DNA of 64,000 nt from assembly GCF_002005225.1 (NCBI RefSeq), contig NZ_CP019724.1:1054001-1118000 (forward strand), read 5' to 3'. The notes beneath the pieces were generated by a model. That model saw only the letters and a list, made by a program, of their open reading frames with translations, searched no databases and was not told where the DNA came from. The stretch's first letter is position 1. Each line of letters opens with the position of its first letter. This document shows positions 7,049 through 19,699 of this stretch, one piece after another. The position numbers and the translations under genes are program-made. This stretch comes from Streptomyces pactum (GTDB taxonomy: Bacteria; Actinomycetota; Actinomycetes; Streptomycetales; Streptomycetaceae).

Positions 7049-7824
7049 GCCGGGCCTCCTGTCGGGATCGGATCGAGGGCACGCAGCGCGCACCGGGCCT
7101 CGTCCGCGAGGGACCGGCCCAGCGCGGCGAAGCCGTCCTCGAAGAAGTGGAAGTGGCCGCCTTCGAAGACCTGCCGGGTGAAGGAACCGCTCGTCTCGGC
7201 GGCCCAGTTGGCCAGCAGTCCCACGGGCGCGAGTGCGTCGCGCGTGGCGCCGAAGGCGGTGAGCGGGGCGGCGAGCCCGCGGGCCGGGGCGTTCGGCCGC
7301 ACCGTGCCGAGCGCGGTCAGGTCGTGGCGGACCAGGCGCAGGAAGTGACGGCGGAACTCGGGTACTTCGTCGAAGCGGTCCGGGATGCCGCCCATCGCGC
7401 TGAGCCCCGCCATCAGTTCCTCGTCGGGCAGCCGCGGGTCGAGATGGGCGACGGGTCGGCAGTCCGCGGGCGCGAGCCGCCCGGACACACCGACCCAGAC
7501 GACGGGTGTCCCGCGCTTCTCCAGGGCGAGGGCGGTCTCCACCGCGACGACGGCGCCCATGCTGTGCCCGAAGAGCGCGAGCGGCGGACCGGTCCACGGC
7601 AGCACGTCCTCGGTGACCCGGGCCGCCATGGCTCCCATGTCGCGCAGTGGTGTCTCGCGGTGCCTGCGGCCGCGGCCCGGCAGGTCGACGAGGAGTACGT
7701 CCCAGTCCGCGGGCACGTGTGCGGCCAGCGGGAAGTAGGCACTGCCGGAACCGCCGGCGTGGTGGCAGACCACCAGGCGCAGCGCCGGGTCGTCGTTGCG
7801 CCGGGGGCGGATGAAGGCGCTCAC
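7045..7824 (-). CDS. Discrete thioesterase (type II, alpha/beta hydrolase)
   Basis: 259 residues with the nucleophile motif GHSMG near residue 87, an Asp in FGATRDALAP near 195, and the catalytic His in GGHFHFF near 224. Type II thioesterases normally clear stalled acyl groups from carrier domains. Here PKS-C lacks an attached thioesterase, so I infer this enzyme may also release the finished chain. Its ATG overlaps the PKS-C stop (ATGA) and its own stop overlaps the flavin reductase start, placing it inside a tightly coupled operon. Confidence 0.88.
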   Translation of the reverse strand: MSAFIRPRRNDDPALRLVVCHHAGGSGSAYFPLAAHVPADWDVLLVDLPGRGRRHRETPLRDMGAMAARVTEDVLPWTGPPLALFGHSMGAVVAVETALALEKRGTPVVWVGVSGRLAPADCRPVAHLDPRLPDEELMAGLSAMGGIPDRFDEVPEFRRHFLRLVRHDLTALGTVRPNAPARGLAAPLTAFGATRDALAPVGLLANWAAETSGSFTRQVFEGGHFHFFEDGFAALGRSLADEARCALRALDPIPTGGPA

Positions 7825-19200: not shown

Positions 19201-19699
19201 TGATGCCGAGGTAGAGACCGGCGCTGGTGCCCGCGAGTGCGTCGGCGGGCAGCGCCGCGTTCTCCAGTGCCTCCCAGGTCACTTCGAGCAGCATGCGGTG
19301 CTGCGGGTCGAGGTGGCGGGCCTCGCGGGGGCTGATGCCGAAGAAGTCGGCGTCGAAGTCCAGGACTTCGTCGAGGAAGCCGCCCCGCTGCGGCAGCCCC
19401 TCCCACTCACGCGCGAAGGGGCCCTTGCGGGAGGCCGGCATCGGCCGCACGAGGTCGCGGCCTTCCGCGAGGGCCGTCCAGTAGCCGTCCAGGCCGTCGA
19501 TGGAGCCGGGCAGCCGGAGGCCGACGCCGACGACGGCGATCGGCTGGTTGGCCTGCTGCTCGTCCAGGCGCCGTTGGAGGTTGCGGATGGTGGCGAAGGC
19601 GCGGGTCAGCGGGGTCTGCTTGGTTCCGGGCGCCGCGCCGTCCGCGGTCGGGCCGTCGGCCTCGCGGTGTTCCTGGTGATCCTGGTGGGGACTGTCCAT
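10256..19699 (-). CDS. PKS-B: bimodular PKS, KS-KR-ACP / KS-AT-DH-KR-ACP
   Basis: 3147 residues. Module 1: KS (~50-480, Cys213), then only the KS-AT linker and post-AT linker (LPGYPWQRRRY) with the AT missing. Next is KR (NADPH motif TGGLGAVG ~916, Tyr ~1062) with the A-type Trp in SAVWGT, then ACP (LGLDS ~1227). Module 2: KS (~1335-1750, Cys ~1503), AT (GHSVGE ~1959; HAFH ~2056, the malonyl-CoA signature), DH (HxxxGxxxxP ~2265, DSLLQ ~2432), KR (GGLGALG ~2750, TDD like the B-type LDD) and ACP (LGLDS ~3058). It lacks DH in module 1, so a beta-hydroxyl is expected there unless processed later. The N-terminus is not a standard docking helix. The start at 19699 is 58 bases after PKS-A. Confidence 0.93.
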   Translation of the reverse strand: MDSPHQDHQEHREADGPTADGAAPGTKQTPLTRAFATIRNLQRRLDEQQANQPIAVVGVGLRLPGSIDGLDGYWTALAEGRDLVRPMPASRKGPFAREWEGLPQRGGFLDEVLDFDADFFGISPREARHLDPQHRMLLEVTWEALENAALPADALAGTSAGLYLGIMWQDYRDWLTGEPDAYWTTGNGHNFAAGRIAYALGLNGPAMSVDTACSSSLVAVHLAVQALRRGECETAFAAGANLIMSPRSMRLVQETRSLSPDGLCRTFDARAAGFTRGEGCGAVVLKRLDHALRDGDRVHAVIRGSALNQDGRSGGFTAPNVLSQVSLIETALSTAGLEPSDIGYVEAHGTGTSLGDPIEMEALATALGRRNGGAPLPVGAVKTNFGHLESAAGIAGLVKAALCLRQRRIPPVVHFRTLNPRIDLSGTGITVPTALEEWPEGAGDHAAVSSFGMSGTNAHVILGLPTDEERAAHEQPRPDVPVREFELSARTPQALRALASACAERLGGLADTDYAAFAHTAGAGRARLEVRARVVAGDPRTAAAALRALASGTPTPDVSVVDTADGDARAERPGGDLPRRVIDLPGYPWQRRRYAPEGIEKRAVERPDAEPTRRHRLVWEETEPPAATAADAMAPDLVLAGDDGPLLTGLVREAAARGARGTVLVPPDTVLPGTTDWERAPLPADPDEWRAFWATRAGTGVSRLVLALKATAFPDEDEIRSQAQTATDTNTATDTNTAADTDSDTDTDTATKVRNGSGTGGAGRSDDPRRPSVPGAELCAAVTAAVTVAAESVAAESTGTPAALVYAVTRAARRTGPADRVAATDHGALHGLAPVLGLELPAAWGGVVDLPHAPTRDDLGALLTLTATRAPQPDGAQPRIMEDLAAVRDGRVLGARLRPEPLPDTTGLPVRPDATYVVTGGLGAVGRELSAELVRRGARHLLLIGRRDEDALGRQAADALAELRRCAGRVVYRGGGCDTPAALAAACAPLDELPPVRGVIHAAGTVERHPAARTGAALFGRALRDKAAGAWWLHRAARDWDVDFFVLVSSVSAVWGTDQCAAYAAANGSLDALAAHRVSRGLPAVSVAYGPWALDGQGMADGAARDQYARLGVGALDAEAGRAVLAARPAADSGHVVACPLDLPRFRRLMSALRPRGLTSVPEAAGERSDRAASSEPVVVHRLAELPDRARADAAGTHVARILADILGHDDERSVRRDTGFFDLGLDSIAAVDLVARLSAAFVTPLLPADVFDHPTVTELAAFLLTRSASGTDPAAPGGPAPEPTGAKRRRRPVPEADAGPARVPAAVAEAAQRADDGALDDGALDDGAPEDGTPDAGEPVAIVGMAGRFPGADSVDELWDLLREGRDGVGTMPRERREALHVRDDGPVTSDQGGYLRDIDRFDADFFGIPAREAQNLDPQQRLLLESAWHALEDGGIDPRRLKDTRTGVFVGVSYADYARLLAQGGTDGLDAYYGTGTALNAAAGRIAYVLGLTGPALAVDTACSSSLVALHLGIRSLRSGESDTVLAGGVNVILDQTASIAVSRAHMLSPDGRCRTFSADANGFVRSEGCGVLVLKRLADALRDGDPVLAVVRGSAVNQDGASSGLTAPSGAAQEAMLTAALADAGTDGAEISYLEAHGTGTTLGDPIEIGAAWRVLGPDRKPGAPLKIGSVKSNIGHCESAAGMAAVIKTVLALRHGLLPANLHFSEPNPHIDWTSMNLRVVESPTPWRASAGPRVAGVSGFGFTGTNAHIILAEAPTPAPDVDQDPAPGTGTETADDPRAARPLCLLPLSAPDAAGLDRLSSAWRHRIERAAPGELPGLARTAGAGRAHFPYRRALLGRDRDQLLAGLDTPAPAPRQGGGPPRVAFLFSGQGSQYAGMGRELYETEPVFRSAYDSCDRVLAPLLGASLTDLVLYADDRTAVHETRITQPALVSLEYALAALWESWGVRPDVVLGHSVGEISAALCASVMDLDTGLALIAERARLMQATERGAMLAVVAPEQDAAAWAAEAGLDLAAVNGPKATVVSGAPDAVAVLEKRLTGLGVRHRRLSVSHAFHSALLDPALDDFSAALAPLEFGPPAVPLVSNVTGRPAGPDELDAAYWREHARRPVRFLDGARELAALDVDVCLEIGPDRTLVNLVKAAGVASFDGTAFSLRRGAPGGDTMLTAAAKLYELGRDLDWRRVGAAARGRSTGRLAAPLYPFADSRHWTPAAARTAVPAPPTATGTGEAPPWGVPLRSPALRGRVFATRRGTDYPAHLTDHRLFGVVSVPGASQTATALSALGSGGTPVALEDLHFPRALVLRDGERYDLQIIEAEQAHGARTVSVQSLVDAGRGRWQEHLAARVVDPGPAGTAPPPDTRAFVANASTHVDGERFYAHLRALGYHLGPSFRWIQEVWIDGDEAVVRFAEPERMNESPDGYEIHPGLLDSLLQSTVAFAVARTAPGSVTEETSLAIPFAAARVDFPGRPPRGPGSELWGHVRVVRDAHARRPADFHAIGSADLRLFDGTGGTVLAVEEFRFRGAPRALLERSLRERTGHAHEMTTEPVTVAEPTGRHRIAVAGADQPPIKLLVRAFEQLGHRVTTVDAPELLTADADADLIVDTRFVLPPGGPGAGSPPEAVLGCAAALARTLRETPRHIPYAVMSAAPPPGAPGPDPAAPLRDALWGLLASLEAEQRDRSLLRVTSRAGTGPDTVARVLTGALEAGFPEPRLEIGAEGTAAVRLVPREEPLPDGAPEGVAGAAALITGGLGALGLSTARVLAGWGASAVTLMSRSEPDAAARHVIDELTAGGTAVQVVRGDVTDAEDCRRAVTEAARRAPLRLVLHLAGTTDDRAFGHLDEQAFAAVFAAKASGAARLADALRDQGRTEDLTALVLYSSVSAVLGSAGQANYAAANGYLNGLARTLRASGLPATSVSWGPWQPAAKGGLAGSDATRRAIGRLGISPLDDEAAAGLLHLAVAGQAPHLVAVAVDTAQYERAAGPARAALLRGTSPAPEREADGEPRGWLRQDLEGLDAEAADERLRTAVREFAAEVLGERFEADDDLGFGDLGLDSIMVIDLRTRLSHALATDLPATVALDHPTVALLAAYLADGAARTGQEPEPAAPRTPAAEPALPPAADPAALSFDELVQAVQADLTREK
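15712..15755. repeat. In-frame 15-bp tandem repeat in PKS-B interdomain linker
   Basis: Three copies of a 15-base unit (plus strand GTGCTCCGTCGTCGA), encoding DDGAL repeats in the Asp/Gly-rich linker between ACP1 and KS2 of PKS-B. It is probably a flexible spacer formed by slippage. Confidence 0.85.
17446..17535. repeat. In-frame microsatellite in PKS-B module 1
   Basis: Repeats of the hexamer TCGGTA, followed by two copies of an 18-base unit (GGTATTGGTGTCGGTCGC), encode a Thr/Asp stretch (DTNTATDTNTAADTD, DTDTDT). It lies in the structural half of the KR region, ahead of its catalytic part. No frame break was seen. Confidence 0.85.

Follow-up and report, generated by a model that had tools for sequence, protein, structure and literature searches.

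In the 64,000-nucleotide stretch of the Streptomyces pactum chromosome analysed here (positions 1054001-1118000 of a genome assembled as one contig of 8.55 Mb, hereafter the window), three collinear polyketide synthase (PKS) genes, namely PKS-A, PKS-B and PKS-C, run leftward on the minus strand and encode four modules, of which the second and the fourth carry no acyltransferase (AT). Our comparison with homologous clusters revealed that this arrangement of two AT-less modules is a real and well-conserved feature, and that it is known in kind from clusters of the neocarzilin type rather than new. The best explanation, which we regard as probable, is a four-module neocarzilin-type PKS in which one malonyl-type AT, that of module 3, would load three carriers. 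What is new here is the placement of the ketosynthases (KSs) of the two AT-less modules as sisters on the cis-AT side, together with the occurrence of the arrangement on a Methylosinus plasmid.

Domain content and conservation of the AT-less modules

The Pfam domain content gives the layout of the four modules. PKS-A (19758..26156, minus strand) is module 1, with the order KS, AT, dehydratase (DH), enoylreductase (ER), ketoreductase (KR) and acyl carrier protein (ACP); PKS-B (10256..19699, minus strand) holds modules 2 and 3, with the order KS-KR-ACP-KS-AT-DH-KR-ACP, where the first module (15890..19699, approximately residues 1-1270) passes from KS to KR with no AT; and PKS-C (7821..10244, minus strand) is module 4, reduced to KS, linker and carrier. 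PKS-C most likely comprises 807 residues starting at an ATG, and the longer listed reading frame opens at a GTG at 10925. Its Pfam domains are a KS, a KS C-terminal extension, a CurL/RhiE-like KS-AT linker and a carrier domain, with no match to PF00698. Altogether one AT is found in PKS-A, one in PKS-B (in the second module) and none in PKS-C, and this count of two ATs for four KSs departs from a cis-AT PKS, where every extending module has an AT, and has the same mix as the class of PKSs that combine AT-bearing and AT-less modules in one line. The initial annotation, which had described the ATs as gone from the first module of PKS-B and from PKS-C while kept in PKS-A and in the second module of PKS-B, therefore holds on the domain content.

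The linkers around the missing domain are retained, as had also been noted. Each of the AT-less modules gives matches to the KS-AT linker models PF22621 and PF22336; in the first module of PKS-B the linker starts with LSARTPQAL from residue 487 (18215..18241, minus strand; PF22621 at residues 487-546), and the post-AT motif LPGYPWQRRRY follows from residue 584 (17918..17950, minus strand). From the end of the KS to the post-AT motif there are 117 residues in this module and 214 in PKS-C, against 441 in the AT-bearing second module of PKS-B. When PKS-C is aligned with module 3 of 6-deoxyerythronolide B synthase (DEBS), residue 565 pairs with residue 551 of the DEBS chain and residue 648 with residue 867, so that 82 residues of PKS-C occupy the space of 315. 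The initial annotation had seen in PKS-C a vestige of the AT end, which turns out to be the post-AT stretch instead (8175..8309, minus strand, residues 646-690; the profile match spans residues 646-697 at 98%). Since profile comparison finds no AT similarity in residues 545-665, no catalytic AT remnant is seen in PKS-C and such a remnant is ruled out. The catalytic motifs of the AT-less modules are otherwise intact, with DTACSSS, EAHGTGT and NFGHLE/RIGHLE for the KS cysteine and histidines and with GLDSI and GGDSF for the carrier serine. Within PKS-B, a low-complexity Asp/Thr repeat (17371-17566) separates the AT-less KS region from the KR.

Thirteen homologous clusters were compared, including the window, Streptomyces bungoensis (L002), Streptomyces sp. 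SolWspMP-5a-2 (L001), nine further genomes, and plasmid pOB3b3 of Methylosinus trichosporium OB3b. A scan of genome contigs used generic KS patterns and gave 79 loci, from which L001 and L002 served as cluster relatives and the rest as KS references only. The first module of PKS-B can be seen in 12 clusters, L001 being cut, and has no AT in any of them; PKS-C has none in 13 of 13, and the four-module set is present on the Methylosinus plasmid as well. Among 120 listed matches to PKS-B, 40 qualify as relatives at 60% identity or more over more than 400 residues and the other 80 fail; the first AT is absent in all 40, of which 39 have the complete order KS-KR-ACP-KS-AT-DH-KR-ACP and one is short, ending as KS-KR-ACP-KS-AT-DH. 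Similarly, the AT is absent in all of the best 120 of 7823 PKS-C relatives, in one of which the carrier model failed too. Deletion of the ATs by chance or in assembly is ruled out by these two sets of relatives. The tail of PKS-C is rare in the genus, being found in 6 of 392 sampled genomes, and a search at the level of the order found it in 8 of 293 genomes (this one counted in both cases). One of these eight, G550, is no true relative; its locus (L098) gave a weak match and proved on comparison to be a different cluster, and was therefore kept out of the counts.

Lineage of the ketosynthases

The initial annotation had interpreted the cluster as a cis-AT line that lost ATs, with a KS phylogeny as the check. 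KS trees were built from the clusters of this family, from cis-AT modules (a KS followed by an AT in one frame) and from trans-AT modules of pTML1, a Bacillus velezensis plasmid and the trans-AT cluster of the present genome, all of them loci with a discrete AT. From 170 cis-AT KSs 81 representatives were taken, of which 24 entered a careful tree of 75 rows and 29 a larger quick tree; in the careful tree six long rows of the 21 trans-AT ones were dropped, and 8 of 10 KSs of PKS-A, 10 of 12 and 9 of 12 first and second KSs of PKS-B, and 9 of 13 KSs of PKS-C were used. The trees comprise the KSs left after setting aside 25 other AT-less or end-of-contig KSs and those of L098, L100, L102, L106 and L108.

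In the careful tree, the trans-AT reference KSs form one clade with support of 100/99, containing no KS of the window family, and each of the four KS positions of the family forms a clade of its own with 100/100. The two AT-less ones, that is the first KS of PKS-B and the KS of PKS-C, are sisters (96/87) lying among cis-AT KSs; they are also joined in the larger quick tree, where the support is only 75. By their place in the careful tree, the KSs thus belong to the cis-AT lineage and not to the trans-AT clade, as the initial annotation supposed. Yet approximately unbiased (AU) tests, run on the larger quick tree, failed to reject that the trans-AT KSs group with the first KS of PKS-B (p 0.346) or with the KS of PKS-C (p 0.129), and for this reason the tree is support for a cis-AT origin rather than proof of it.

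The simplest reading of the sister relation is that it would reflect one loss of the AT in a cis-AT line followed by duplication, and two separate losses are possible as well. Taking the former further, we suggest with some hesitation, at a little under even confidence, that a single AT loss and duplication left one embedded malonyl AT serving three carriers, namely its own, the preceding one in the same chain and that of a separate protein, and that the four modules may have stayed together as a unit, both in actinobacteria and on the Methylosinus plasmid.

Candidate loaders of the AT-less modules

The two ATs of the cluster have opposite signatures. The AT of the second module of PKS-B (13259..14092, minus strand, residues 1870-2147, GHSVG...HAFH) has HAFH in all 13 compared clusters and in 39 of the 40 qualifying PKS-B relatives among the 120 listed, with no motif found in the remaining one, whereas the AT of PKS-A (23601..24551, minus strand, residues 536-852, GHSQG...YASH) has YASH in all 10 clusters where it is visible. 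According to the signature rule given in PMC6164871, HAFH stands for malonyl and YASH for methylmalonyl, and the malonyl type which the initial annotation had assigned to the PKS-B AT agrees with the signature seen in the compared clusters. The HAFH AT of PKS-B is the likeliest candidate, judged from sequence, for the loader of the AT-less modules.

No discrete AT gene accompanies the cluster. Within the window, PF00698 matches fall only in frames of at least 1697 residues; in the whole-genome PF00698 search the matches between 1,054 and 1,155 kb are all in frames of at least 1169 residues, and the left flank (L104) gave no PF00698 match. As the initial annotation had remarked, no free AT is visible, and the cluster lacks the discrete AT gene of a trans-AT PKS.

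Elsewhere, PF00698 matches outside the cluster occur in this genome and in all nine others searched. At about 420 kb or farther from the cluster come the first AT proteins that are small or in tandem, and a 458-residue AT frame is also encoded. The genome further contains a true trans-AT PKS cluster (L099, L102 and L103, G000:C1 at about 1.50-1.52 Mb), where AT-less modules stand beside a 1610-residue frame with two ATs and a weak match to nitronate monooxygenase. In G501, the five PF00698 matches of the whole genome are the two cluster ATs, a frame of 334 residues, one of 636 and a FabD-sized one of 357. Eight free or tandem ATs from the present genome (G000), G501, G269 and G292 were compared, the FabD-sized frame of G501 and further ATs listed for the searched genomes being left out; those that are not FabD (two from the tandem AT and one more of the present genome, two of G501, and one each of G269 and G292) are only 24-41% alike. 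Among the eight compared, no dedicated discrete AT partner therefore seems to be shared, which favours the PKS-B AT or FabD as the loader.

Under the explanation that we prefer, PKS-A would add a methylmalonyl unit and reduce it fully, module 2 with its KR would add a malonyl unit, module 3 would add malonyl units, probably iteratively, and module 4 would add another malonyl unit with no reduction. Besides charging its own ACP, the AT of module 3 would serve that of module 2 as well as the carrier of PKS-C, a protein that would dock behind module 3; the thioesterase would release the chain and the halogenases dependent on flavin adenine dinucleotide (FAD) would chlorinate it. The ACP of module 2 sits directly before the KS and AT of module 3 in one chain, and the N-terminus of PKS-C, read by eye, is helix-like in the manner of docking regions. 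Neocarzilin A is described in PMC11134574 with a trichloromethyl ketone and a stereocentre that bears a methyl group, on which account modules 2 and 4 should take malonyl, the unit that the PKS-B AT would provide; such a structure agrees with a single YASH module and malonyl units after it.

Besides the AU tests, several observations weigh against this explanation. No assay of the loading of the AT-less modules came up in the literature searched, which did not extend to the original neocarzilin paper. The genome encodes a FabD-like AT (L101, a 371-residue frame whose best NCBIfam match, fabD, scores 187.5 bits under a cut-off of 260.9), and the trans-AT cluster has its tandem AT about 420 kb from PKS-A, or about 380 kb from the end of the window. 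In G292 a free-standing AT (L127:859-2025) lies 18.6 kb upstream of PKS-A, though in its close relatives G329 and G346 no free AT is found in the 20 kb upstream of PKS-A. Finally, the carrier of PKS-C is weak in Pfam (E 4e-4) and reads GGDSF, so that its recognition by the AT of module 3 is not obvious.

The first alternative is an outside loader, that is FabD or another AT of the genome, which we consider unlikely although it deserves more weight than the other alternatives. The FabD-like frame and the PF00698 matches beyond the cluster, such as the three extra ones of G501, would supply the enzyme, but loading by FabD leaves unexplained why the AT of module 3 is constant while ATs of modules 2 and 4 are never present, and the low likeness among the other free ATs compared speaks against an outside loader as well. 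Loading by the methylmalonyl-type AT of PKS-A, the sole other AT of the cluster, is hardly credible given its constant YASH motif and the one methyl-bearing stereocentre of neocarzilin A. It is also conceivable, if improbable, that modules 2 and 4 only pass or modify the chain without extending it, since neither has an AT and module 3 may iterate; however, the KS and carrier motifs of both are intact, and both modules are kept in every cluster where they are visible.

We regard it as very improbable, in turn, that the line is of the true trans-AT kind or that it is a hybrid with AT-less modules taken from such a PKS. The missing ATs and the presence of a real trans-AT cluster in the same genome would suit it, as would the unrejected AU groupings, and among solved structures 7zma reaches the top total score against PKS-C (535 bits, over two KS stretches). 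In single stretches, by contrast, PKS-C scores 426.8 bits with CurL and 412.3 with DEBS module 3 but 268.8 at best with 7zma, and the entries named as AT-less PKSs stay at 340 bits or below. With the trans-AT clade of the careful KS tree excluding the window family and with no discrete AT gene in the cluster, a true trans-AT line is rejected on that tree, the AU tests remaining as a caution. Among known systems, the trans-AT PKSs of pTML1 of Pseudoalteromonas and of Bacillus velezensis (the latter presumably of the bacillaene type) resemble the window in having AT-less KS modules and differ from it in both their discrete AT genes and their separate KS clade.

Kinship of the cluster, neighbouring genes and meaning

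The cluster with which the window agrees most is that of neocarzilin A and B from 'Streptomyces carzinostaticus' (MIBiG BGC0000111), for which Otsuka et al. in 2004 reportedly described three type I PKS genes with four modules, modules 2 and 4 having no obvious AT, together with long interdomain stretches and, next to the PKS genes, a type II thioesterase as well as a FAD halogenase. The window has all of these features, with three collinear genes and four modules of which modules 2 and 4 are AT-less, a FAD halogenase upstream and a type II thioesterase downstream; it also has a flavin reductase and a Na+/H+ antiporter (halogenase and antiporter by matches below their cut-offs), and it differs in its three halogenase-like genes (at 26375, 32227 and 4543). 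Judged by gene content and architecture, the window cluster is thus taken to be a member of the neocarzilin-type family. The interpretation of the initial annotation is partly supported, namely as to the cis-AT side of the KSs and the missing discrete AT; the arrangement itself was already known.

The flanking genes, all on the minus strand, bear on this kinship. Next to PKS-C lies an alpha/beta hydrolase (7045..7824), which we take to be of the type II thioesterase kind and of which a relative adjoins PKS-C in all 13 compared clusters, followed by an HsaB/RutF-like flavin reductase (6512..7048, start approximate). Directly upstream of PKS-A is a FAD-dependent halogenase-like protein (HAL2, 26375..28024), with NCBIfam matches far under the cut-offs, then a large LuxR-type regulator (28066..30894) and a CPA2-like cation:proton antiporter (30866..32161), both conserved in the operon, and a CmlS-like FAD halogenase (HAL3, 32227..33549; 247.7 bits against a cut-off of 900) as the first gene of the conserved block; the names of the halogenases and the antiporter rest on NCBIfam matches under curated cut-offs. 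The order of CmlS-like halogenase, antiporter, LuxR regulator, second halogenase-like gene, PKS-A, PKS-B, PKS-C, thioesterase and flavin reductase is common to the window and the five Streptomyces clusters with complete flanks (G519, G501, G150, G269 and G444). In G292, G329 and G346 the PKSs and the thioesterase are present, and the halogenases and flavin reductase of the window are unmatched across some 20 kb of upstream sequence and 9 to 15 kb of downstream sequence.

Related clusters can be recognised in several named strains. For instance, Actinoplanes SE50/110 is described in PMC11626248 as having three PKSs, a flavin reductase, a halogenase and a Na+/H+ antiporter with 50% similarity to BGC0000111, a gene set named there without a thioesterase; a PKS-C relative from Actinoplanes sp. 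SE50 (P0110) is among the matches listed here. So is one from Streptomyces sp. HC307 (P0081), and the report of that strain lists a neocarzilin A/B cluster (PMC12113709). The halomadurone producer Actinomadura sp. WMMB 499 has an AT-less relative of PKS-C (P0062, 63%, compared on PKS-C alone); according to PMC3877905 the strain makes the trichlorinated halomadurone A, a trichloromethyl pyrone, whereas neocarzilin is a polyenone. On the Methylosinus plasmid, the PKSs are preceded by a HAD-IIIC phosphatase, an ACP, an E2-type acyltransferase and a FAD monooxygenase (L091:1-4829), which may point to a different starter unit.

Other features of the window lie outside the conserved operon. A third halogenase-like gene (4543-6471) has no match beside any of the other neocarzilin-type clusters whose flanks were examined, and its relative in L098 (7862-9853) adjoins two KS-AT-ACP genes. 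An SbnA/cysteine-synthase-like enzyme dependent on pyridoxal phosphate (2678-4009) stands beside a transporter of the major facilitator superfamily type, as read from the sequence. At 46946-64000 a second modular PKS runs rightward, with near-identical inter-module stretches (up to 99.6% over 1141 bases), strong GC and TA skews of -0.31 and -0.44 (for its first two genes, -0.26 and -0.33), and equally scoring AT matches that recur four times, twice inside the window and twice past its end; its repeats and skew resemble the GRINS (genetic repeats of intense nucleotide skews) mentioned in PMC10394414. Between the two PKS clusters, two similar regulators like Streptomyces antibiotic regulatory proteins (33700-35736 and 42794-45169) and two similar AraC-like regulators (36751-37497 and 45807-46769) can be read.

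The neocarzilin-type family is a clean system for the question of loading, as it combines two AT-less modules with two ATs whose specificity signatures are opposite, all within one cluster, and a product that has a methyl-bearing stereocentre. If the AT of module 3 indeed loads three carriers, the family would be a natural model for AT sharing in engineered PKSs, and a single shared malonyl AT would represent a natural halfway stage from the logic of cis-AT lines to that of trans-AT lines. The sister AT-less KSs mark a candidate single step of AT loss.

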